The notes beneath the pieces were generated by a model. The model ran no database searches, had not been told where the DNA came from, and was given only the letters and a program-made list of their open reading frames with translations. DNA of 64,000 nt from the NCBI RefSeq assembly GCF_003051005.1, contig NZ_QAOW01000001.1, positions 186,001 through 250,000 of the forward strand, read 5' to 3'. Each line of letters starts with the position of its first letter. Position 1 is the stretch's first letter. This DNA comes from Rhodococcus sp. OK519 (GTDB lineage Bacteria > Actinomycetota > Actinomycetes > Mycobacteriales > Mycobacteriaceae). The translations under genes were made by a program, and so were the position numbers. Below are positions 2,691-14,426 of the stretch, piece by piece.

Positions 2691-4100
2691 TCAGAGGATC
2701 GTGTACGGCGACACCGAGCTGCGATGCTCGTTGATGTCGAGTTCCTTGCCCAGGGGAGGGAAGGCGCGCTGCGGGCAGTTCATCCGCTCGCACACGCGGC
2801 AGCCGGCACCGATCGGGGTGGCGGTGCTGCCGCCGAGGTCGAGCCCGTCGGCGTACACGACGCGCGGGGCATGGCGCAGTTCGCAACCCAGGCCGATCGC
2901 GAACGTCTTGCCGGGCTGTCCGTACCGCTGCGCGCGCCGCTCCACCGTGCGGGCCACCCACAGGTAGTTGCGACCGTCGGGCATCTGCGCGATCTGCGTC
3001 ATGATCTTGCCCGGGTAGGCGAACGTCTCGTACACGTTCCACAGCGGGCACGTGCCGCCGCTCGACGAGAAGTGGAAACCGGTGGCGGACTGGCGCTTCG
3101 ACATGTTCCCGGCCCGGTCGACGCGAACGAACGACCACGGCACGCCGCGCTGCTTGGGGCGCTGCAGCGTCGAGAGGCGGTGGCAGATCGTCTCATAACT
3201 GATCGCGTAGAACGCCGACAGCCGCTCGATGTCGTAGCGGAAGTCCTCCGCGATCTCGTGGAACTGGCCGTACGGCAGCACCGTCGCCGCCGCGAAGTAG
3301 TTGGCCAGACCCAGCATCGCCAGCGAACGGGCCTCGTCGGAGGTGAAGTTGCCCTCGTCCACCAGCTTGCGGAGTAGGTCGCCGCACTCGAGGTACGCGA
3401 GTTCGGTCGCGAACTTGAACACCTGCTGCCCGCCGGACAGCGCAGGCGAGATCTCCAGCAACCGGGTCTCGGGGTCGTACCGGTGCAGGACGTTCTCACC
3501 CAGATCGATTCGCCGCACGATCTGGACGTCGTGCAGGTTCTCCAAGCGCCGCGCGATGCCGTCCGCGATGTCGCCGCGGTGGAAGCGCAGACGCGCGGTC
3601 AGGTCCTCGGCCGCGGTGTCGAGGTCGTGGATGTAATTCTGCCGCTGATAGAAGTAGTCGCGGACCTCCTCGTGCGGCATCGTGATCGACCCGCTGCCGC
3701 TGCCGTCGCTGAATCGGTCCTCGGTGGCCGCCGCCAGCTGAGCGGAGGTGTTGCGGAAGCGGCTGTGCATGTTGACCATCGCCTTCGCCAGCCCGGGGTG
3801 CGAGGACACCATCTCCGCGATCTCCTGCGCGTCCGCGTCGATCCCCATGTCCTTGTCGAGCGCGACCTCCCGCAACTCGGCGATCAGCCGGGTGTCGTCC
3901 TGCGACGAGAAGAACGTCGTGTCGACACCGAACACCTCGCTGATCCGCAGCAGCACCGGCACCGTCAGCGGGCGCACGTCGTGCTCGATCTGATTGAGGT
4001 AGCTGGCCGAGATGTCCAGCGTCTTGGCGAGCGCGGCCTGGCTCAGGCCGCGCTCGGTGCGGAGCTGTCGCAGACGGGCGCCGACGAAGGTCTTGGACAT
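2691..4100 (-). CDS. ramB: RamB-type transcriptional regulator of acetate/glyoxylate metabolism
   Basis: A 469-residue regulator with an N-terminal XRE helix-turn-helix (about residues 8-62; LRTERGLSQAALAKTLDISA). A middle region follows, related to the ImmA/IrrE type. The C-terminal domain belongs to the short-chain fatty-acyl regulator type and ends in a Cys-rich segment (GCRVCERMNCPQRAFPP). This architecture and length match RamB of Corynebacterium and Mycobacterium (Rv0465c). RamB controls isocitrate lyase, and aceA lies 1.7 kb away on the other strand, as icl1 does in M. tuberculosis. Autoregulation is likely through the inverted repeat just upstream (4118-4156). Confidence 0.9.
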   Translation of the reverse strand: MSKTFVGARLRQLRTERGLSQAALAKTLDISASYLNQIEHDVRPLTVPVLLRISEVFGVDTTFFSSQDDTRLIAELREVALDKDMGIDADAQEIAEMVSSHPGLAKAMVNMHSRFRNTSAQLAAATEDRFSDGSGSGSITMPHEEVRDYFYQRQNYIHDLDTAAEDLTARLRFHRGDIADGIARRLENLHDVQIVRRIDLGENVLHRYDPETRLLEISPALSGGQQVFKFATELAYLECGDLLRKLVDEGNFTSDEARSLAMLGLANYFAAATVLPYGQFHEIAEDFRYDIERLSAFYAISYETICHRLSTLQRPKQRGVPWSFVRVDRAGNMSKRQSATGFHFSSSGGTCPLWNVYETFAYPGKIMTQIAQMPDGRNYLWVARTVERRAQRYGQPGKTFAIGLGCELRHAPRVVYADGLDLGGSTATPIGAGCRVCERMNCPQRAFPPLGKELDINEHRSSVSPYTIL

Positions 4101-4463
4101 GCACGCCAGCGTACGAGCGACCTGCTAACCGTGCAAAGGATCGCATTAGCAGGTCGCCGATCGGAAGCCGCCGATAGCAGACCGATCGTGACGTTTCAGG
4201 AACAAGTCTTGACATCTCGGTGACGGTGACAAAAGCTGGGCGACAGTCATTGATCGATTGTGTAAAGCATTGGTTGCTAGGCAGTTTGGGGCGCGGGGCG
4301 AGGGCTCACGCGCCCTGAGCGAACAAGCGCGGGCCTCTCCGACGGATGGGGTCCCCGGACTCACGCCTGCCCTCCGAACTGGGCGTGGGCCGTCCTCAGT
4401 TCCGGGTGTCCACGGTCGGCGTCCGCCGGTCCGGCACGCGACCAGGAATCGTCAGAGGTCACG
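4101..4463. other. Intergenic region between ramB and an uncharacterised gene
   Basis: A 363-nt divergent region that should hold the ramB promoter and that of the gene at 4464. It contains the 11-bp inverted repeat at 4118-4156. A TTGACA at 4209-4214 could be a plus-strand -35 element, but no clear -10 follows. I see no convincing coding frame in it. Confidence 0.6.
4118..4156. promoter_or_regulatory. Perfect 11-bp inverted repeat upstream of ramB (candidate RamB operator)
   Basis: The arms are CGACCTGCTAA at 4118-4128 and TTAGCAGGTCG at 4146-4156, exact reverse complements, with a 17-nt spacer containing TGCAAAG. It lies 18 nt upstream of the ramB start codon. TGCAAA resembles the core of corynebacterial RamB boxes (TTTGCAAA), and the TTAGCA half recurs in the aceA leader (5618, 5664). 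Autoregulation is an inference. Confidence 0.5.
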
Positions 4464-5342
4464 ATGATCTTTACCTCGAAGCGCCGCGCACGCGCCGGAC
4501 TCCAACCATCGGTGCTCTTCGCGCGCGCCGATGCCGTCGCGCCCCCCGATACCGCAGCGCCCACCGATGCCGTAGCGCCCACCGATGCAGCGGAGTCCGT
4601 CCACCACGCGCTCGGGCCGGTCGAGGTCGCGACCTCTGTCGGTGGGGAGTCGAAGGACGCTGATCAAGTGGCAGTGACAGCCCGGTGGCTGGTCCTCACA
4701 ACCGACGTCACCCGCGGCTTCGCTCGCGCGCTTCTCCCGGAACCGTTCGCGCTGGCCGACCGGCCACAGCTCGCAGTGTGGATCGTCGAACCGCTGTCCG
4801 CCGACTCGACCGAGGTGGGCGTTCCGGTCGGTCGGTTGTTCGCGGGGATGTCGTGCAACTGCCTCTTGCCGGGGGAACAGGACGAGAGTGCGTACACGTC
4901 GGACTTCCTCGTGGGCGCGCCGATCGCGGACGGGGACCGCGACCCCTTCGCGTTGCCGGACCTGCCTCAGACGGCGCTGAGCCTGGTCAACGGGGTCGGC
5001 GGCATGGGCTTCTCGATTCCCCCGGTCGACGGCGGGGGCAGGGGAGTGGTGGGCCGCGTCGAGCTGTCGGACAGTGGCTCCGGCGAGGTCCAGTTGACGC
5101 CGGACTGGATGGCCTGCCAATCCTGGCGCCCGGACCTCGTGGGCGCATCTGGAGACGCCCCCGGGGGGCCCGACCTCGTCCATACGCAGTGGGACGTGAC
5201 GCGGTTGTCGCCGATCGTCACGGGTTCGGCCGTCGTCGAGTGCGCCGAGTTCGGGCCGCACTCGTACGACCTGTCGGGGTCCGCGGCCGCGTTGGACGCG
5301 CGCTACGGCTTCGCCCGCGTCGCGATTCTCGGCCGGCAGTAG
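4464..5342 (+). CDS. Uncharacterised protein with N-terminal Ala/Pro/Thr/Asp repeats
   Basis: A 292-residue protein that I do not recognise. An AGAGG ribosome site lies 5 nt before the ATG and GC3 is high, which supports this strand. After a basic N-terminus comes a low-complexity stretch built on an 18-bp repeat encoding APTDAV (about residues 28-42). The rest shows no signal peptide and no membrane helix. The middle has short conserved-looking patches (VTARWLVLTTDVTRGFARA, GRLFAGMSCNCLLPG). The gene stands alone between ramB and aceA, and a hairpin follows at 5352-5373. No function is suggested. Confidence 0.55.
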   Translation: MIFTSKRRARAGLQPSVLFARADAVAPPDTAAPTDAVAPTDAAESVHHALGPVEVATSVGGESKDADQVAVTARWLVLTTDVTRGFARALLPEPFALADRPQLAVWIVEPLSADSTEVGVPVGRLFAGMSCNCLLPGEQDESAYTSDFLVGAPIADGDRDPFALPDLPQTALSLVNGVGGMGFSIPPVDGGGRGVVGRVELSDSGSGEVQLTPDWMACQSWRPDLVGASGDAPGGPDLVHTQWDVTRLSPIVTGSAVVECAEFGPHSYDLSGSAAALDARYGFARVAILGRQ

Positions 5343-5351
5343 GCGCTTGTG

Positions 5352-5373
5352 CCCGAGGCGCGGAGCGCTCGGG
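5352..5373 (+). terminator. Hairpin after the gene at 4464
   Basis: CCCGAG at 5352 and GCGCTCGGG at 5365-5373 form a GC stem with one bulged G and a GGA loop, starting 9 nt after the stop codon. There is no clear T-run. Confidence 0.45.
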
Positions 5374-5428
5374 GTATCTGTGACCCCAATTCCGGAGTGT
5401 TCCACTGTGCGGAACGAATGCCGGTCCT

Positions 5429-5444
5429 TGTGATTGCCCTCACA
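5429..5444. promoter_or_regulatory. Perfect CRP/GlxR-type site upstream of aceA
   Basis: The sequence TGTGATTGCCCTCACA matches TGTGA-N6-TCACA with no mismatch. It lies 345 bp upstream of the aceA start. In related actinobacteria CRP (Rv3676) or GlxR binds this consensus, and GlxR is known to act on glyoxylate-cycle genes. Confidence 0.6.
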
Positions 5445-5789
5445 GTCGCACCCTCCCGGCGGTGAGGGCTGTCGGCGCGGGCCTCGTGCGCGTGTCCGAT
5501 TTCACTCCCTGGGGGTCGTGTCCGGTTCCCCGGCGAATGTCGAGGTAGAGGCCTACTTGCGGGTAACTTTCATTGCTACTGACGGGTAACCCAAGCAACT
5601 GCTTGGCTGTATGGAAATTAGCAAGCTTCGCAGACTGATATGAAAAGCTAGCGAAGATTGGCATTAGCAACAGGTAGACGGCTGTTTTTCTCTGTGCCAT
5701 TGTCGGTTTGTACATCCGAACGGCCTGGCAACGATGTGAAGCAGTACATCCGTACCGGTCGCAGCAGCAGAGAAGAAGTGGAGCTTTCG

Positions 5790-7079
5790 ATGTCGACCAC
5801 CGGCACCCCGAGGACCGCAGAGCAGATCCAGCAGGATTGGGACACCAACCCCCGTTGGAAGGGCGTCACGCGCAACTACACCGCGGAGCAGGTCGTCAAG
5901 CTCCAGGGCACGGTGGTCGAAGAGGCCACTCTCGCCCGCCGCGGTTCGGAGATCCTCTGGGATCTCGTCAACAACGAGGACTACATCAACTCGCTCGGTG
6001 CGCTCACCGGCAACCAGGCCGTCCAGCAGGTCCGCGCGGGCCTCAAGGCGATCTACCTCTCCGGCTGGCAGGTCGCCGGCGACGCCAACCTGTCCGGCCA
6101 CACCTACCCGGACCAGAGCCTCTACCCGGCCAACTCCGTCCCGCAGGTCGTGCGTCGTATCAACAACGCGCTTCTGCGTGCCGACGAGATCGCCAAGGTC
6201 GAGGGCGACACGTCCGTCGACAACTGGCTCGCTCCGATCGTCGCCGACGGTGAGGCCGGCTTCGGTGGCGCGCTCAACGTCTACGAGCTGCAGAAGGCCA
6301 TGATCGCGTCCGGCGTCGCCGGTTCGCACTGGGAGGACCAGCTCGCGTCGGAGAAGAAGTGCGGCCACCTCGGTGGCAAGGTGCTCATCCCGACGCAGCA
6401 GCACATCCGCACCCTGACCTCGGCTCGCCTCGCGGCCGACGTCGCCGACGTCCCGACCGTCGTCATCGCCCGCACCGACGCCGAGGCCGCCACGCTGCTG
6501 ACCTCCGACGTCGACGAGCGCGACCGCGAGTTCCTCGACGGCACCCGTACCGCCGAGGGCTTCTACGGCGTCAAGAACGGCATCGAGCCCTGCATCGCTC
6601 GCGCCAAGGCCTACGCCCCCTACTCCGACCTCATCTGGATGGAGACCGGCGTTCCGGACCTCGAGGTCGCCAAGAAGTTCGCCGAGGCCGTCCGCAGCGA
6701 GTTCCCGGACCAGCTGCTGGCCTACAACTGCTCCCCGTCCTTCAACTGGAAGGCGCACCTGGACGACGCGACCATCGCGAAGTTCCAGAAGGAGCTCGGC
6801 GCGATGGGCTTCAAGTTCCAGTTCATCACCCTCGCCGGCTTCCACTCGCTCAACTACGGCATGTTCGACCTGGCGCACGGCTACGCCCGCGAGGGCATGA
6901 CCGCCTTCGTCGACCTGCAGGAGCGCGAGTTCAAGGCCGCCGAGGAGCGTGGCTTCACCGCCATCAAGCACCAGCGTGAGGTCGGCGCCGGCTACTTCGA
7001 CCGCATCGCCACCACCGTCGACCCCAACACCTCCACGGCTGCCCTCAAGGGCTCCACCGAAGAGGGCCAGTTCCACTAG
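5790..7079 (+). CDS. aceA: Isocitrate lyase
   Basis: A 429-residue protein that cleaves isocitrate to succinate and glyoxylate, the first step of the glyoxylate shunt used on acetate and fatty acids. The catalytic signature KKCGH is at residues 189-193 with Cys191, the same number as in M. tuberculosis Icl1. Its length is also within a residue or so of Icl1. I chose the ATG at 5790 because [12 protein letters not shown] is the usual N-terminus and a GGAG precedes it; the frame is open further upstream but not conserved. The gene is flanked by ramB and fadB2, as in M. tuberculosis. Confidence 0.97.
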
Positions 7080-7093
7080 GCCTCTCGAACTCT

Positions 7094-7135
7094 CGGGAGG
7101 GATCGACGGGGTGTCCTCCACGCCGATCCCTCCCG
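7094..7135 (+). terminator. Stem-loop between aceA and fadB2
   Basis: A perfect 12-bp stem: CGGGAGGGATCG at 7094-7105 with CGATCCCTCCCG at 7124-7135, and an 18-nt loop. It starts 15 nt after the aceA stop and has no T-run. It could end or partly attenuate aceA transcription before fadB2. Confidence 0.6.
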
Positions 7136-7169
7136 GGAATCCGACCTCCACTTCCGAAAAGGAGCTGAC

Positions 7170-8066
7170 GTGACCAGCGAAAAGATTCAGCGCGTCGGCG
7201 TGATCGGCGCCGGCATCATGGGTTCCGGAATCGCCGAGGTGTGCGCCCGTGCACACGTCGACGTGCTGGTGTTCGAGCCGAGCCGCGAACTCGCGGCGGC
7301 AGGACGCTCGCGCATCCTGCGCTCGCTCGATCGCGGAGTGAGCAGTGGCAAGATCACCGAACGTGAGCGGGAGCAGGCCGCCTGGCGGCTGCGCTTCACC
7401 TCCGATCTCGGTGACTTCGCCGACCGGCAGCTCGTAGTGGAGGCCGTCGTCGAGGACGAGAAGATCAAGAGTGAGATCTTCACCGAACTCGACTCGATCG
7501 TGACGGATCCGGACGCGGTGCTCGCATCGAACACGTCCTCGATCCCGATCATGAAGCTGGGCATTTCGACCAACGCTCCTGAGCGTGTGATCGGTATGCA
7601 CTTCTTCAATCCGGTTCCCGTCCTCCCACTCGTCGAACTGGTCACCACGCTCAAGACCAGTCCTGCGGTGTCGGAGCGTGCGGAAGCATTCGCGAGTGAG
7701 GTGCTCGGCAAGCAGGTAGTGCGTTCGGCGGACCGTTCCGGTTTCGTCGTCAACGCCCTCCTTGTGCCGTACCTCCTCTCCGCGATCCGCATGGTGGAGT
7801 CGGGCTTCGCAACCAAGGAAGACGTCGACAAGGCGATGGTGCTCGGATGTGCGCACCCGATGGGTCCGCTCGCGCTGACCGATCTGGTGGGACTTGACAC
7901 CGTCAAGTCGATCGCCGACTCGATGTACGAGGAGTTCAAGGAGCCGCTGTACTCGGCCCCGCCACTGCTGCTGCGGATGGTCGAGGCAGGGCTCGTCGGC
8001 AAGAAGTCCGGTGCTGGCTTCTACGAATATGCCGACAACGGCCGTGCCGCCAAGAAGGCAAGCTAG
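7170..8066 (+). CDS. fadB2: 3-hydroxybutyryl-CoA dehydrogenase
   Basis: A 298-residue NAD-dependent enzyme that oxidises 3-hydroxyacyl-CoA, mainly 3-hydroxybutyryl-CoA. The Rossmann motif GVIGAGIMGSGIAE is at residues 10-23. The catalytic His sits in GMHFFNPVPVLPLVELV, and the C-terminal dimerisation domain contains DLVGLDTVKSI. The start is GTG with GGAG 5 nt upstream. It lies 90 nt after aceA, as icl1-fadB2 do in M. tuberculosis, so fatty-acid oxidation and the glyoxylate shunt are probably expressed together, subject to the hairpin between them. Confidence 0.94.
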   Translation: MTSEKIQRVGVIGAGIMGSGIAEVCARAHVDVLVFEPSRELAAAGRSRILRSLDRGVSSGKITEREREQAAWRLRFTSDLGDFADRQLVVEAVVEDEKIKSEIFTELDSIVTDPDAVLASNTSSIPIMKLGISTNAPERVIGMHFFNPVPVLPLVELVTTLKTSPAVSERAEAFASEVLGKQVVRSADRSGFVVNALLVPYLLSAIRMVESGFATKEDVDKAMVLGCAHPMGPLALTDLVGLDTVKSIADSMYEEFKEPLYSAPPLLLRMVEAGLVGKKSGAGFYEYADNGRAAKKAS

Positions 8067-8100
8067 ACAGAACTTTACGGCAACACCAGCCAGCTTCTCG

Positions 8101-8152
8101 GCGCCCGTGTGGCTTCTCCGCATCCTCGGCAGCGGACAGGGCACACGGGCGC
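8101..8152 (+). promoter_or_regulatory. 11-bp stem-loop in the metE leader
   Basis: GCGCCCGTGTG at 8101-8111 pairs exactly with CACACGGGCGC at 8142-8152 across a 30-nt loop. The structure ends 29 nt before the metE start codon. It may be a terminator for fadB2 or a regulatory element of metE. I could not match it to cobalamin or SAM riboswitch consensus. Confidence 0.5.
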
Positions 8153-8181
8153 GAGGCGCTTGAAGGGAAAGGTCGATCCGC

Positions 8182-10470
8182 ATGTCCGCCGCAAACACCG
8201 CCGGGTACGGATCCAGCGTCCTCGGATACCCCCGCATCGGGCCCCGCCGCGAACTCAAGCGGGCACTCGAGGCCTACTGGCACGGGACCGGCACCAAAGC
8301 CGACCTCGTCTCCGTCGCAAAGGAACTGCAAGAGCAGACCTGGAGCGAGCTGGCCGCCACCGGGTTGACCCAGGTCCCAGGCAACACGTTCTCGTACTAC
8401 GACCACGTGCTCGACAACGCGCTGCTGTTCGGCGCCGTCCCCGAGCGGTTCACGCCGCTCGAGGGTGAACTCGACCCGCTCGACTTCTACTTCACCATGG
8501 CTCGCGGCCGGCCCGACTTCCCGCCGCTCGAGCTGGTGCGCTTCTTCGGCACCAACTACCACTACCGCCAGCCCGAGCTGTCCGAGACCTCCACCTTCGA
8601 ACTGCATTCGGAGACACTGCTCGACGAGTTCGAACGCGCCAAGGCGCTCGGTATCGAGCTGCGTCCGGTCGTCCTCGGGCCCGTCTCGCTGCTGCTGCTG
8701 TCGAAGATCGCACCCGGGTCGGTCGCGGAGGGTTTCGCGACCCTCGATCTGCTCGACAAGCTGTTGCCCGAGTACGAGAAGCTCTTCGCGCAGCTCGCGA
8801 AGGCCGGTGCGACCTGCATCCAGTTGGACGAGCCCTGCTTCACCGAGGACCGCACTCCGGAGGAGCTCGAGGCTCTCGGTCGGGCCTACCAGGATCTCGC
8901 GCACGCGCCGCTGCGTCCGCGCATCCTCGTCACCGGACCGTACGGGTCCCTGGGGGAGGCTCTGCCGATCCTGGCCGCGACTCCGGTCGAGGCACTCGGC
9001 CTGGACCTGGTCAACGGACGGATCACCGCCGAGGAACTGGCGAAGGTGCCCGGCATCAGGCGTAAGCGGATCTACGCGGGCATCGTCGACGGCCGCAACG
9101 TGTGGCGCGTGGACCGGTTCAACACCCTCACCTACCTCAATCAGATCAAGGACGTCACCCCCGATCTGGTCGTCTCCACATCGTGCTCGCTGCTGCACGT
9201 CCCGTACGACGTGCTGATGGAATACGACGTGCTCGGTGACGTCGCGGACCGGCTTGCCTTCGCGAAACAGAAGGTGGGCGAAGTGGTTTCGCTCGCGAAA
9301 GCACTTACCGAGGGGCCGTCGGATCGGTGGCGCAAGAAGCCGACGTCGGTGCACTTCAAGCAGAAGCACGACGTCCGGTCCCGGGTGAACGCGATCAAGC
9401 CGGAGCACCGCGTCCGCGCACCGTACGAGGAGCGCCGGGTCGCGCAGCAGGCGCGACTGAACCTGCCTCCCGTGCCCGCGACGACGCTGGGATCGTTCCC
9501 TCAGACGAACGAGATCCGCCAGGCCCGTTACGAACTGGGCGAGGGACGGCTCGACTGGGCCGAGTATCACAAGCGGATCCAGGACGAGATCGCGAAGACC
9601 ATTGCCTTGCAGGAGGACATCGGCCTGGACGTGTTCGTGCACGGTGAGCACGAGCGCAACGACATGGTGCAGTACTTCGCGGAACTGCTCGAGGGCTACG
9701 CGTTCACCCACAACGGGTGGGTGCAGGCCTACGGTTCTCGGTGCACCCGGCCGCCGGTGCTGTACGGCGACATCCGTCGTCCGAAGCCGATGACGGTCGA
9801 GTGGATCTCGTACGCGCAGTCCCTCACCGACAAGCCGGTCAAGGGCATGGTCACCGGTCCCGTCACGATGCTGGCGCGCTCGTTCGTGCGTCAGGATCAG
9901 CCCCTGCACGAGACGGCCGACCAGTTGGCGCTCGCGATCCGCGACGAGATCGCGGACCTCGAGGCCGCCGGCATCGCGATCATCCAGGTCGACGAACCGG
10001 CGATCCGGGAACTGTTGCCGCTGCGCGAGACCGGGCGCAAAGAGTACCTGGACTGGGCCGTCGACGCCTTCCGTCTCGCGACGGGCGGTGCCAAGCCGGC
10101 GACGCAGATCCACACACACCTCACGTACTCGGGCCAGCGGTCCGTCGTGGATGCGATCGAACGGCTGGACGCCGACGTCACCGCGATCGTGGCGACCCGT
10201 TCGATCAGCTGGGTGCTCGAGGCTCTCAAGGAGAAGGCGCTCACTCACGGCGTCGGACCCGGTGTGTACGAGAGTCGTTCGGCGCGAATCCCGGACATCG
10301 ACGAACTCGACGCCCTGCTCACCGAGGCCGCCGAATCCGTCGATCTCGACCGGCTCTGGGCCAACCCCGACGGCGGACTCAAGACCCGTCACTACTGGCA
10401 GCTCGAGCCGTCGCTGCGCAATCTCGTCGCCGCGGCTCGTCGTTTGCGGCGGCGTGCCGCGCAGGGGTAG
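8182..10470 (+). CDS. metE: MetE-family cobalamin-independent methionine synthase homologue lacking most zinc ligands
   Basis: A 762-residue full-length MetE, with the N-terminal domain beginning GYPRIGPRRELKRALEAYW and the C-terminal catalytic barrel. MetE moves a methyl group from 5-methyltetrahydropteroyl-polyglutamate to homocysteine using a zinc held by His641, Cys643, Glu665 and Cys726 (E. coli numbering). With a constant offset of +5, these positions are His646, Thr648, Val670 and Gly731 here (HTHLTYS, AIVATRS, NPDGGLKTR). Three of the four ligands are therefore replaced, although QVDEPAIREL and the substrate-barrel motifs remain. Codon use is normal and there is no frameshift. It may be inactive as a methionine synthase or may have a changed role, so the name is by family only. 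Confidence 0.85.
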   Translation: MSAANTAGYGSSVLGYPRIGPRRELKRALEAYWHGTGTKADLVSVAKELQEQTWSELAATGLTQVPGNTFSYYDHVLDNALLFGAVPERFTPLEGELDPLDFYFTMARGRPDFPPLELVRFFGTNYHYRQPELSETSTFELHSETLLDEFERAKALGIELRPVVLGPVSLLLLSKIAPGSVAEGFATLDLLDKLLPEYEKLFAQLAKAGATCIQLDEPCFTEDRTPEELEALGRAYQDLAHAPLRPRILVTGPYGSLGEALPILAATPVEALGLDLVNGRITAEELAKVPGIRRKRIYAGIVDGRNVWRVDRFNTLTYLNQIKDVTPDLVVSTSCSLLHVPYDVLMEYDVLGDVADRLAFAKQKVGEVVSLAKALTEGPSDRWRKKPTSVHFKQKHDVRSRVNAIKPEHRVRAPYEERRVAQQARLNLPPVPATTLGSFPQTNEIRQARYELGEGRLDWAEYHKRIQDEIAKTIALQEDIGLDVFVHGEHERNDMVQYFAELLEGYAFTHNGWVQAYGSRCTRPPVLYGDIRRPKPMTVEWISYAQSLTDKPVKGMVTGPVTMLARSFVRQDQPLHETADQLALAIRDEIADLEAAGIAIIQVDEPAIRELLPLRETGRKEYLDWAVDAFRLATGGAKPATQIHTHLTYSGQRSVVDAIERLDADVTAIVATRSISWVLEALKEKALTHGVGPGVYESRSARIPDIDELDALLTEAAESVDLDRLWANPDGGLKTRHYWQLEPSLRNLVAAARRLRRRAAQG

Positions 10471-10485
10471 GCACGCCGACCCTTG

Positions 10486-10532
10486 CAGCACACCGGGATC
10501 GGATCGTTTGCGGATCCGGTCCCGGTGTGCTG
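10486..10532. terminator. Bidirectional terminator between metE and endoglycoceramidase genes
   Basis: CAGCACACCGGGA at 10486-10498 pairs with TCCCGGTGTGCTG at 10520-10532. The inner part (CGGATC/GATCCG) extends the stem. It separates two convergent genes and can serve both strands. Confidence 0.75.
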
Positions 10533-10536
10533 TGTT

Positions 10537-12081
10537 CTAGGAACCGCTGCTGCCGAGTGATCCGCTGCTGCCGAGTGATCCGGAGCTTCCGGAACTAGCG
10601 CTGCTTCCGGGATTTCCGGAACTCCCCGAGGATCCTGTGGTGATCGGGCCGTCGGGGACGTCGATCCCCGGCGAACCGGGTCGGTTGATCTTCACCGTGA
10701 CAGGGCCACTGCTGTCGGCGACGACCGTGACGATCCGCGCCCCAGGCGCCGACGTGACGTGCCCGCCGTCGACCGACACTTGGTACCCGTCGGGGTAGTG
10801 CAGGTCGGACACGAATATCTCGGTGGGCCTCGTCGCGGCCCGCGGTGTGTAGCGGTACGCGAAGTCGCCGTTGTCCGCGTCGAAGGCCATGCGACCGGGC
10901 GTGCCCGCCGTGGCCTGCGGATACGTGCGCACGAGTTGGCGTCCCACGTCGCCGAGGAACGGGTCCGTGGTGTTGCCGGCGCCGAAGTGCCAGTACTGCC
11001 AGCCGATGAACCGCTCGTCGGCGCGCGCGAGCGTGTTCCGCAACACCGTCGGATCGCCGTCACCGAATTCGGTCACGATGGTCGGGATGTTTGCGCGCTC
11101 GGTCATCTCGTCGATGTGGGACCACGTGAGGTCCTGCTGCGGAACACACAGCCCGCGCAGTGCCTGCGGCAGGCCGAGATAGATCGCAAGCTGGCTGGGA
11201 ATGCAGTAGTCGTGCGGCGCGAAGACCGTGTCGGGGCCGGCGACAGCCGGCGTCGCAGGCGGGTTGAACAGGTTCGACGGCATCATCTGGTTCCACGTGA
11301 CGTTCGGCTCCCAGTACACAGGAATCGTCGGGTTCTCGGCGCGGACCGCGTCCGTCAGCTTCTGCATCGCGGCCTGGTACTTGCGGTCGAAGTCCGGGCA
11401 TCCGTTCGGGAAGCACGTCAGGAACGGTGAACCGGGCCAGGGTTCGTTCATCAACTCGATGCCCATCACACCGGGCTTGCCCTCGACCTTCGCGGCGAGT
11501 GCCCCGAGCGCGGTGCCGAGGTAGTCGAGCGCGCCGTGAGTGTTGTTCCACACCTCGTCCCAGCCGACGTTCATGCTCGGCATCAAGTTGTAGAGCGGGA
11601 AGCCCGGGTTCGGCTCCCATGTCGCGGGCCGGGACTCGATGGACCACGCGGGGAAGCCGTTGCCGCCCCAGGGTTTCGAGAGCCCGTCCTGGTGGTTGTC
11701 GAGCAGGACGTAGATGCCGCGGGCGGTCAGATAGTCGACCACACCGGTGAGGCGGTCGAGGTACGCCTCGTCGATCTGTCCGCGCTGCGGCATCAATGCG
11801 TCGAACGACGTGCCGAGTCGGACGGTGTTGAAGCCGTGCTCGACGAGGATGTCCATGTCCTGGTTCGTGAGAGTCTCGCCGGCGGGGAGGTACGGCGCGT
11901 CCTTGTCCACGTTGTTGACGCCGTGCAGCAACACCGTCCGGCCGTGGCCGTCGACCAACTCGGTGCCCTCGGCGCGCAGGGCGGTGATCGGAGTGGTCGG
12001 TGGGGCAGCGGAGGCGGCGGGAAGGGCGATCAGTGAGAACGCTGCGATCGCTGCGGCGATCGCGACACCATACTTGCGCAT
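10537..12081 (-). CDS. Secreted endoglycoceramidase (GH5)
   Basis: A 514-residue secreted glycosidase that releases the intact glycan from glycosphingolipids such as gangliosides. A Sec signal peptide (residues 1-26, ending ASAA) is followed by a GH5 barrel. The acid/base is Glu213 in MNEPWPG and the nucleophile Glu338 in [10 protein letters not shown]-terminal beta domain and a Gly/Ser tail rich in GSSGS follow. The sequence is close to Rhodococcus EGCase I/II as I remember them. I start at the ATG at 12081 because GAGGA lies 5 nt upstream and the signal peptide begins there. The tail is encoded partly by a perfect 18-bp tandem repeat (10544-10579). Confidence 0.9.
10544..10579. repeat. 18-bp perfect tandem repeat (x2) in the endoglycoceramidase tail
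   Basis: CCGCTGCTGCCGAGTGAT occurs at 10544-10561 and again at 10562-10579. It encodes part of the Gly/Ser/Leu tail just before the stop codon. Copy number could vary without affecting the catalytic domain. Confidence 0.85.
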
Positions 12082-12260
12082 ACGATTCCTCGGTTCGCGT
12101 CGGATGGTCCCGGCGGATATGGACACATGTTCAGTTGTCCGGGATGGTAGGTCGGCAGCCGACCCGCGCGGAGCATTTCGGGGGAAACGGTCTAATTCTC
12201 CCGGGCAGGTCAGGACGCCTTCTTTGCGTGTACTCGCCGGTAACGGGTAGGCATGTGTGC

Positions 12261-13301
12261 ATGATTACCGCTTCTGCCTATGCGGCCACCTCCGCCGATT
12301 CGCCCCTCGTGAAGACCACGATCGACCGGCGCGAGGTCGGTCCGCGTGACGTCCTCATCGAGATCAAGTACGCGGGGATCTGCCACTCCGATATCCACAC
12401 CGCCCGCAACGAGTGGGGCGGCACCGCGTACCCGGTGGTGCCGGGCCACGAGATCGCCGGCGTCGTCGCCGAGGTCGGCGCCGAGGTCACCCGTCACGCG
12501 GTGGGCGATCGCGTGGGCGTCGGCTGCTTCGTCGATTCGTGCCGCACGTGCGCCAGCTGCGAGGCCGGCGAGGAGCAGTACTGCGAGAACGGCGTCGTCG
12601 ACACGTACAACACCGTCGGACGTGACGGAAAGCGCACGGCCGGTGGGTATTCCACCCATATCGTCGTGGACGAGGAGTTCGTGCTGTCCGTCCCCGACGG
12701 CCTCGCGCTCGACGTCGCCGCACCGCTGCTGTGCGCCGGCATCACGCTGTACTCGCCGCTCGCGCACTGGGGCGCCGGTCCGGGCAAGAAGGTTGCGATC
12801 GTGGGCATGGGCGGTCTCGGTCATGTCGGCGTCAAGATCGCGCACGCGATGGGCGCCGAGGTGACGGTGCTGAGCCAGTCGCTGAGCAAGAAGGACGACG
12901 GGCTGCGCTTCGGGGCCGACCACTACTACGCGACCGCCGAGAAGGAGACGTTCAAGGCGTTGCGTGGACAGTTCGACCTGATCCTCAACACCGTCTCGGT
13001 CAACCTCGACATGGACCGCTACCTGTCGATGCTCGCGGTCAACGGCACCCTCGTGGAACTGGGCCTGCCCGAGAACCCGATCAGTGTCCGCGGCTTCTCG
13101 CTGCTCAAGAACCGGCGCAGCCTGGCCGGTTCGCTGGTCGGCGGTATTCCGCAGACCCAGGAGATGCTGAACTTCTGCGCCGAGCACGGCATCGGTGCCG
13201 AGATCGAGGTTATCCCGGCCGACCGGATCAACGAGGCCTACGACCGCGTCGTCGGCAGCGACGTGCGGTACCGCTTCGTGATCGACGCCGCCACCTTCTG
13301 A
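12261..13301 (+). CDS. Zinc-dependent NAD(P) alcohol dehydrogenase
   Basis: A 346-residue medium-chain dehydrogenase of the YahK/AdhC cinnamyl-alcohol type. The catalytic zinc site includes [31 protein letters not shown] (two stretches, residues about 35-65). The structural zinc has four cysteines in [16 protein letters not shown]. The Rossmann segment is [17 protein letters not shown]. It should interconvert aldehydes and alcohols, probably with NADPH. The start is the ATG at 12261 ([10 protein letters not shown]), and an in-frame GTG at 12255 is also possible because the ribosome site is weak. It is divergent from the endoglycoceramidase gene. Confidence 0.9.
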
Positions 13302-13309
13302 CGGGCTTC

Positions 13310-13369
13310 CCGCTCCCGAATTGACCTCCCGCGGATGCGATCGCGTCCGCGGGAGGTCAGGACGGGAGC
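13310..13369. repeat. Left 60-bp inverted repeat flanking the AbiEi/DUF559 gene
   Basis: This 60-bp arm matches the reverse complement of 14414-14473 at 59 of 60 positions. Inside it lies a 36-nt near-perfect palindrome (GACCTCCCGCGGA ... TCCGCGGGAGGTC, 13323-13358). It begins 8 nt after the alcohol dehydrogenase stop codon, so it may also act as a terminator. Confidence 0.9.
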
Positions 13370-13466
13370 GGGAGCAGTTGTCCACAGCCCGACGGTTGTC
13401 CACAGGGATGGTCGTGGACGTGGCTTCCCGGGGGCGACGCCGCGTGCTGCCGGTCAGAATCGCGGC

Positions 13467-14426
13467 ATGAGCGAACCGACACCCACCGTCCTGCGCCGAC
13501 GCGACGCCCTCGCGCGGGGCTATACCGACGGCGAACTCCGGGCGACGTGCCGCAACGGTGGGCTGCGACGTCTGCGGCCCGGGACCTATCTGAGCGGCGA
13601 CGTGTTCGCCGCGCTCGACGCCGCCGAACTCCACCACGAACTGATCCGCGCGACGCTCCCCGGGGTGAGCGCCGACGCCGTCGTCAGCCACCAGTCCGCG
13701 GCCGTACTGCACGGGCTCCCGGTATGGGCGCTGCCGCTCGACCGCGTCCACGTCACCCGCGACAGATCCGGCGGTGGCAAGCGGACCCGCCATCTGCACT
13801 CGCACTCCGCGCCGCTTCCCACGGCCGATGTGGTGCGGCGAAACGGAATCGCCGTCACCTCGATCGCGCGCACCGTGGCCGACCTGTGCCGGACGATGCC
13901 GTTCGAGGCCGCGGTCGCCGTCGGCGATGCAGGCCTGCGCGCGGCGAAACTGCCGGTCACCGCTGCCGCCGACGCACTCGCCTACGCGGAGCGTCGGCCG
14001 GGTCACCCCGCGGCCCGTCGAGCGTTGGACTTCATCGACGCACGCAGCGAGAGCGTCGGCGAATCGCGCAGCCGCGTCGCGCTGACCGCACTCGGATTCG
14101 AGCCGGAGCTTCAGGCGTCGCTGCTGGACGCCGACGGCCGATTCCTCGGCCGCGTCGACTTCCTCCTCGTCGCCGCCGGTGTCGTCGGGGAGTTCGACGG
14201 AAAGATCAAGTACGGCAAGTACCTTCGGGACGGCCAGAGCCCCGGCGACGCGGTGTTCGCGGAAAAGCAGCGCGAGGACTCCATCCGCGACATGGGCTGG
14301 GAGGTGGCCCGCTGGACGTGGCGCGACCTGTCGAACCCGACGGTGATCGACGCGCGCATCCGTCGCGCACGCCGACGCCGGGAAGGTCGACCGCGGCCGC
14401 TCGGCACGGTGCTGCTCCCGTCCTGA
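13467..14426 (+). CDS. AbiEi-type/DUF559 protein in an inverted-repeat cassette
   Basis: A 319-residue protein. The N-terminal part (RRDALARGYTDGELR, RLRPGTYL, SHQSAAVLHGLP) resembles the winged-helix region of type IV AbiEi antitoxins. The C-terminal part resembles the DUF559/Vsr fold, with RVDFLL and EFDGK as a possible PD-(D/E)xK centre near residues 230-252. No AbiEii nucleotidyltransferase toxin is adjacent, so it is an orphan. The ATG at 13467 gives the conserved N-terminus, while the open frame further upstream covers the left repeat. The stop codon lies inside the right 60-bp repeat. Such proteins are common in actinobacteria and their role is not established. Confidence 0.7.
   Translation: MSEPTPTVLRRRDALARGYTDGELRATCRNGGLRRLRPGTYLSGDVFAALDAAELHHELIRATLPGVSADAVVSHQSAAVLHGLPVWALPLDRVHVTRDRSGGGKRTRHLHSHSAPLPTADVVRRNGIAVTSIARTVADLCRTMPFEAAVAVGDAGLRAAKLPVTAAADALAYAERRPGHPAARRALDFIDARSESVGESRSRVALTALGFEPELQASLLDADGRFLGRVDFLLVAAGVVGEFDGKIKYGKYLRDGQSPGDAVFAEKQREDSIRDMGWEVARWTWRDLSNPTVIDARIRRARRRREGRPRPLGTVLLPS

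Follow-up and report, generated by a model that had tools for sequence, protein, structure and literature searches.

Cobalamin-independent methionine synthase (MetE; TIGR01371, EC 2.1.1.14) is a full-length, two-domain protein, and the available portion of PMC7857596 numbers its zinc ligands in Escherichia coli as His641, Cys643, Glu665 and Cys726. The core methionine synthases MesA-MesD consist of a single catalytic domain. Non-conserved zinc residues (FSHG, YCDQ, YREQ; Gly for Glu665) are described in the same portion of PMC7857596 for the MesB-like proteins of Chloroflexales and for MesC of MSBL-1, and its authors suspect another function for the MSBL-1 proteins. Here we describe a MetE homologue encoded in a 64,000-nucleotide stretch of Rhodococcus sp. 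OK519 (the window; contig NZ_QAOW01000001.1, positions 186,001 to 250,000), which has kept one of the four zinc ligands. The clade formed by the window protein (P0001) and its zinc-less orthologues is called MetE* below. Judging from sequence comparison, MetE* appears to be an old paralogue of MetE with a rebuilt active centre and is probably misnamed. We put the probability that it is a neofunctionalised, thiolate-zinc-free, sulfur-starvation enzyme binding an amino acid and a folate at roughly 0.6.

The gene and the codons that distinguish it from MetE lie at the following positions of the window:

8182 to 10470, forward strand: MetE* (zinc-less MetE paralogue), 762 amino acids, ATG start, no internal stop
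9877 to 9879, forward strand: codon of Arg566, which replaces the pterin-stacking Trp (Trp539 in Thermotoga maritima)
10117 to 10119, forward strand: codon of His646, the sole kept zinc ligand (118 of 118 in the clade)
10123 to 10125, forward strand: codon of Thr648, which replaces ligand Cys643 (E. coli numbering)
10189 to 10191, forward strand: codon of Val670, which replaces ligand Glu665 (E. coli numbering)
10210 to 10212, forward strand: codon of Trp677, present in 118 of 118 clade members; Glu in 60 of 68 canonical MetE
10276 to 10278, forward strand: codon of Arg699, which replaces a candidate acid His (His672 in T. maritima)
10372 to 10374, forward strand: codon of Gly731, which replaces ligand Cys726 (E. 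coli numbering)

Pfam matches cover nearly the whole of P0001 (Meth_synt_1, 361 bits; Meth_synt_2, 421 bits), and with Meth_synt_1 matching residues 11-325 the N-terminal domain is present. In a HMMER alignment with the MetE chains 1u1h (Arabidopsis thaliana) and 4ztx (Neurospora crassa), the ligand sites are free of gaps: THMCYS/SHFCYS, IENSRS/IENSKS and NPDCGLKTR align with THLTYS, IVATRS and NPDGGLKTR of P0001, which has His646, Thr648, Val670 and Gly731 where MetE has His, Cys, Glu and Cys (HCEC). A sequence-only reading of this stretch had proposed that an intact gene of 762 codons had lost three of the four ligands at a constant offset of +5 from E. coli MetE. The gap-free alignment and the orthologues bear out the loss, the offset holds for the numbers given in the accessible part of PMC7857596, and the gene is indeed intact.

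MetE* resembles MetE in its full-length two-domain architecture, its identity of about 45-56% to other actinobacterial MetE, its homocysteine head-group and folate-tail residues and its DM(V/I) loop (DMV in MetE). It differs from MetE in lacking the Cys/Glu/Cys ligands, the pterin-stacking Trp and the His of DIHSP, and in forming its own clade with its own gene neighbourhood. The MesB-like and MesC proteins belong to the same superfamily and share the non-conserved zinc residues, but they are single-domain core proteins, whereas MetE* has the N-terminal domain and has lost another set of residues. Profile scores separate MetE* from MetE as well (matched spans were scored, except for P0001): all six MetE* tested, including P0001, fall below the TIGR01371 cut-off of 929.95 (802-900 bits; three canonical MetE, 1049-1079 bits). 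All nine pass the NF003556 cut-off of 541, and this loose match probably explains the name methionine synthase. The survey in PMC7857596, which in its available part is based on TIGR01371, may not have counted MetE*. In the open-licence PMC literature we found no paper on MetE without zinc ligands in these genera, and the available parts of PMC7835258, PMC7661421, PMC3868597, PMC9426449, PMC11852219 and PMC5157978 held nothing attributable to the orthologue.

The loss of ligands is a property of a whole clade. A scan of one genome per species (84,980 species) gave 206 relatives, and the best 80 of these share at least 72% identity with the window protein; the closest named matches among those listed come from Prescottella agglutinans and Rhodococcus hoagii, both at 96% protein identity, and from P. 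equi at 95%, which suggests that the host is a Prescottella. Among 201 genomes of the host's own family, 117 have a match of at least 995 bits (62-100% identity), spread over 24 of 31 genera (counted by eye), and the next-best match below this group scores 806 bits at 55% identity. When 298 genomes from the order and 396 from the phylum were searched, full-length matches above 60% identity were confined to the own family; a half-length 60% match (L222, in G646) is a canonical HCEC protein. Cys/Glu/Cys was absent from 136 of 136 MetE* loci, some genes being present from two collections, and the 11 canonical MetE aligned with them all have HCEC. A further set of 66 rows includes 9 MetE*; its 57 loci outside the clade (L165 being a repeat of L141) all have HCEC. 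Across all canonical MetE having these columns, Cys/Glu/Cys is kept in 68 of 68, with four degraded paralogues set aside. A later set of 146 MetE* loci reduces to 118 distinct proteins. All 118 have His646; position 648 is Gly in 58, Thr in 41, Pro in 6, Ser in 5, Ala in 3, Asn in 3 and Glu in 2, position 670 is Val in 113 and Ile in 5, and position 731 is Gly in 117 and Phe in 1.

MetE* evolves under purifying selection. The ratio of nonsynonymous to synonymous substitution rates (dN/dS, NG86) is 0.057-0.107 between the window gene and six Prescottella/Rhodococcus orthologues, and 0.05-0.08 for four other pairs. A decaying pseudogene or a sequencing error finds a point of attachment in one clade record, L036, which represents the same place as G183 and reads in two frames. 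It is the only MetE* span shorter than 700 amino acids; all 220 matched spans, 146 of them MetE*, are free of stops. Given the ligand loss in every one of the 136 loci, the low dN/dS and the fixed replacement residues described below, we reject decay or error as almost certainly wrong. The record of L223 (G800), a canonical-type MetE, is likewise split into two frames.

In a maximum-likelihood tree (quick method) of 46 of the 118 MetE* and 37 of the 73 other distinct rows, including two degraded rows and the partial L223, MetE* forms one side of a single branch (SH-aLRT 100; stem 0.7 changes per site). Weak support (82) joins it to four canonical MetE from a different family (f88) within the order. 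Recent duplication of the own family's canonical MetE is unsupported, as MetE* does not group with these proteins in the tree. Four degraded MetE paralogues of family f88 (L218-L221) arose separately: none of the four has HCEC or retains Ser438, three lack the NPDCG segment, and the two included in the tree fall among canonical MetE and outside MetE*. Thus the degraded paralogues have lost a binding residue, in contrast to MetE*, which has kept its binding residues.

Residue roles were taken from the available part of PMC539065, and T. maritima numbers were mapped by an offset of 27-28, or by motif with an offset of 8 for Arg15 and Lys18 and 16 for Lys104 and His111. The amino-acid head-group residues Ser438, Glu489 and Asp604 (T. 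maritima Ser411, Glu462 and Asp577) are each kept in 118 of 118 MetE*, as is Asp494-Met495 of the DMV loop. The folate-tail residues are kept as well: Arg23 (117/117), Lys26 (116/117), Arg520 (118/118) and Arg523 (118/118), corresponding to T. maritima Arg15, Lys18, Arg493 and Arg496. The pterin residue Glu610 (T. maritima Glu583) is kept in 111 of 118. In contrast, Cys648, Glu670 and Cys731 each occur in 0 of 118, the pterin-stacking Trp566 is Arg in 111 and Trp in none, His699 of DIHSP is Arg in 116 and His in 2, and Lys120 is Arg in 95 of 117 and Lys in 18. As candidate acids, the accessible text of PMC539065 names T. maritima His111, His672 and Asp467, all invariant in MetE; in MetE* the first (position 127) is His in 89 of 117, the second (699) is the His of DIHSP just described, and the third (494) is Asp throughout.

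In 69 canonical MetE, 222 positions are at least 97% fixed; MetE* keeps 193 of these and has lost 29. The losses include six of the seven chosen reaction-centre positions (120, 566, 646, 648, 670, 699 and 731) and none of the ten chosen binding positions. Comparing the reaction centre with all remaining positions gives a Fisher p of 2e-5, with the caveats that positions lack independence and that both sets were our choice from PMC539065. The replacements are themselves conserved. Cys212, Tyr254, Trp677 and Glu697 are each found in 118 of 118, and 12 positions are at least 95% fixed in both MetE* and canonical MetE with different letters. The earlier suggestion that exactly the metal ligands had been lost was therefore too narrow, since the pterin-stacking Trp and the DIHSP His are gone too. 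Its idea of a folate- or homocysteine-binding protein does agree with the residues kept at the folate-tail and amino-acid positions. Selection for another role, which it had also proposed, is supported by the single clade, the dN/dS of about 0.1 or less, the fixed replacements and the six changed reaction-centre positions.

Could the zinc site simply have moved? Just two Cys columns are shared by half of the clade or more: C212, in the N-terminal barrel (118/118), and C521 (105/118). Because the C-terminal barrel has no Cys column but C521, we reject a thiolate site shifted to another place in that barrel. A general lowering of sulfur content is an unlikely cause of the Cys loss, because MetE* spans contain 1-6 Cys and canonical spans 2-9. 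A zinc-sparing paralogue of the Zur type was considered as another conceivable reading.

Binding residues kept and most reaction residues lost is also the usual pattern of a pseudoenzyme, and MetE* could be a non-catalytic sensor or store that binds homocysteine, methionine or folate. We consider this improbable, as the 12 differently fixed positions speak for fixed replacement rather than drift, and the abundance described below would be unusual for a sensor. A second alternative keeps catalysis and changes the acceptor or donor chemistry. Near-fixed new residues replace Trp, His, Asp and Ile of MetE (Arg566, 111/118; Arg699, 116/118; Glu697, 118/118; Ser698, 114/118), and they may bind an amino acid with an anionic side group such as a sulfinate, sulfonate or carboxylate. 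The groove would then hold a folate or a polyglutamyl cofactor such as F420, and the Arg and Lys residues for a polyglutamate tail are kept. To our knowledge the MetE fold offers no precedent for such an arrangement, and retention of the pterin-holding Glu610 favours a pterin; we regard this alternative as rather unlikely, though less so than the pseudoenzyme.

The host need not depend on the window protein for methionine synthesis. The suggested search for a second MetE or MetH in its 5.28-Mb genome found both: a canonical MetE with HCEC (G000:C3:122140-124389) and a MetH above the family cut-off. The host also has a third PF01717 protein, which contains the catalytic domain only (L003 1207-2496, G000:C1:873457; Meth_synt_2, 95 bits) and lies between tRNA thiouridylase-like and DNA ligase-like genes, both named by eye. 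MetH is present in 34 of 34 genomes that have MetE* and no canonical MetE match, 33 above the cut-off and G003 in two adjacent frames; at most five candidates per genome were scored, so that absence of canonical MetE from these genomes is unproven. Among 46 genomes with canonical MetE and without MetE*, MetH is above the cut-off in 36 and not in 10 (Fisher p 0.004, a contrast confounded by phylogeny). As weak evidence, this contrast fits MetE* not being a methionine synthase.

A connection with sulfur starvation comes from Rhodococcus qingshengii IGTS8. According to the available part of PMC8557817, a ‘MetE’ of this strain, IGTS8_peg5907, is 190-273-fold up on dibenzothiophene relative to sulfate, with glucose in both, is among the ten most abundant proteins of the sulfur proteome, and contains 2 Cys and 7 Met. 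The accessible text reads it as a protein of methionine synthesis and proposes a MetE knock-out; it also reports that MetY and sulfonate-use proteins are co-induced. We examined six erythropolis-like genomes (G097, G083, G155, G122, G165 and G185), in which MetE* has 2 Cys in five cases and 1 in one, and 8 Met in five and 7 in one, counting the initiator. In five of the same genomes, canonical MetE has 4 Cys, so that the Cys count tells the two apart. In G083, mshA is far nearer to MetE* (about 38 kb) than to canonical MetE (about 690 kb), and between MetE* and mshA the sulfatase, TauD and ROK genes follow in the order of pegs 5938, 5939 and 5940, mshA being peg 5948. We called 36 open reading frames in this interval against the 42 implied by the peg numbers, a shortfall in keeping with a coarse caller. 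Because of the gene order and the Cys count, peg5907 is very probably MetE*. If so, the conclusion of methionine synthesis in the part of PMC8557817 available to us does not follow from the sequence of peg5907.

Strong induction and high abundance, if they are those of MetE*, favour an enzyme of sulfur metabolism over a sensor. The co-induced sulfonate-use proteins (PMC8557817, available text) can be counted for the anionic-site alternative. The co-induced MetY, together with the authors' own interpretation in the same text, would suit a third alternative: that MetE* is still a methionine synthase, zinc-free or with a metal on His646 and newly acquired ligands, employed at times of sulfur (cysteine) shortage. 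The homocysteine head-group residues, kept in every member, agree with it. However, no Cys site is left in the C-terminal barrel, and MetH is present in all 34 genomes without a canonical MetE match, which makes a methionine synthase the least probable of the catalytic alternatives and less probable than the sensor.

For the gene neighbourhood we compared 101 loci, each 8 kb or longer and each with a distinct MetE*. In the window, the genes and the hairpin in front of MetE* are:

5658 to 7079, forward strand: aceA (isocitrate lyase), opening the conserved block; limits of the listed open reading frame, true start probably further in
7170 to 8066, forward strand: fadB2 (3-hydroxyacyl-CoA dehydrogenase family), in second place in the conserved block, name supported by Pfam
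8101 to 8152, forward strand: strong hairpin in the gap between fadB2 and MetE* (arms 8101-8111 and 8142-8152), 29 bases before the ATG

Pfam also backs the name aceA. By calling of open reading frames, aceA, fadB2 and MetE* are consecutive on the same strand in 92 of the 97 loci that have 3.5 kb or more ahead of MetE*. The remaining five and L125 have the block by tblastn, which brings the total to 98 of 98 judged loci, L046, L048 and L076 having too little flank to judge. The adjacency to fadB2 and aceA to which the sequence-only reading drew attention is not due to chance; the block may be no more than an old gene order or may reflect a joint function. Downstream the order varies: an alcohol-dehydrogenase family gene is found in 49 of 101 loci at differing positions. 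In the window, a glycosyl hydrolase family 5 cellulase-like gene (10537-12126, reverse strand) lies between MetE* and the alcohol dehydrogenase. The same arrangement is seen in Prescottella and in part of the Rhodococcus loci, and the family of this gene (F19) occurs in 10 of the 101.

The gap containing the hairpin folds at -54.9 kcal/mol (z -3.9) in the window. Most of the Rhodococcus and Prescottella loci that were folded have the hairpin (not L031 and L032), ending about 30 bases before the ATG, and at some of the more distant loci (L122-L125, L147) it is weak or missing. It resembles a terminator without a T run in the window, leaves little space for a promoter downstream, and may be part of the MetE* leader. 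For an RNA switch, no Rfam match at gathering score was found in window positions 3000-14000, nor in L001, L149, L019, L132 and L041, of which the canonical loci L001 and L149 have short upstream sequence only. A consensus scan of positions 7000-10600 gave no sigma-70-like promoter. Synonymous conservation within fadB2 in 32 loci is 0.69-0.91 per 14-codon bin (0.88 at codons 224-237, 0.77 in the last bin), with no clear 3' peak that would suggest a hidden element.

What would a MetE-like protein without a zinc centre do? The losses strongly suggest that MetE* is unable to make methionine by the zinc-thiolate mechanism. The residues kept suggest that the former homocysteine pocket still takes an amino acid, beside a folate-type polyglutamate cofactor, and as a peg5907-type protein MetE* would serve sulfur scavenging. 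Our first guess, a tentative one that we hold at well under even odds, is that MetE* demethylates a methylated sulfur amino acid in a tetrahydrofolate-linked reaction. Methyl transfer would then run in the direction that does not need thiolate activation, from a methylated sulfur amino acid (e.g. a sulfonium such as S-methylmethionine) to tetrahydrofolate, and no metal would be involved. In place of the metal site there would be a more spacious, apolar pocket formed by Val670, Gly731 and Thr or Gly648, with Trp677 placed seven residues past the old Glu ligand. Zinc-free methyl transfer from a sulfonium to tetrahydrofolate is known from the DmdA-type tetrahydrofolate demethylases, which have the GcvT-family fold. 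The likeness lies in the proposed logic only. MetE* has another fold: the Pfam scan of P0001 (E up to 0.001) matched only Meth_synt_1 and Meth_synt_2, with no GcvT-type match.

Several observations weigh against a thiolate-zinc-free, folate-binding enzyme of sulfur starvation, or against parts of this proposal. The replacement of Trp566 by Arg, and of Lys120 by Arg in 95 of 117, alters the pterin site, and the cofactor may not be folate; the new Arg566 and Arg699 fit a sulfonium badly and speak for an anionic group. His646, together with the newly conserved His737 (94%) and Glu697, leaves room for a non-thiolate metal site, and of the three candidate acids one is kept throughout and another in most MetE*. 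Ligand loss as such is not unique to the clade, having occurred in L218-L221. The ten genomes without MetH above the cut-off all belong to two genera (g3 and g5). The constant aceA and fadB2 neighbours suggest C2/acyl-CoA metabolism, not sulfur. Finally, peg5907 was identified by gene order and composition rather than by its sequence, and the 7 Met of the paper fit five of the six MetE* only when the initiator is left out.

With these points taken into account, we still favour a neofunctionalised enzyme with an amino acid and a folate as its ligands. MetE* looks like a two-barrel folate enzyme in which both substrate sites have been kept and the chemistry rebuilt. Nocardia, Rhodococcus and related genera may thus possess a zinc-free, folate-linked, organosulfur-scavenging enzyme that demethylates or otherwise cleaves a sulfur amino acid, is induced about 200-fold in the absence of sulfate and has been misread as methionine synthase in genome annotation and in one proteome, although in this specific form the idea is possible rather than likely. 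An abundant protein of biotechnologically important Rhodococcus carries the name methionine synthase, yet lacks the zinc centre. Models of sulfur and methionine flux rest on that name, as does the MetE knock-out proposed in the available text of PMC8557817, and the methionine-synthesis reading of the proteome in that text deserves to be revisited.

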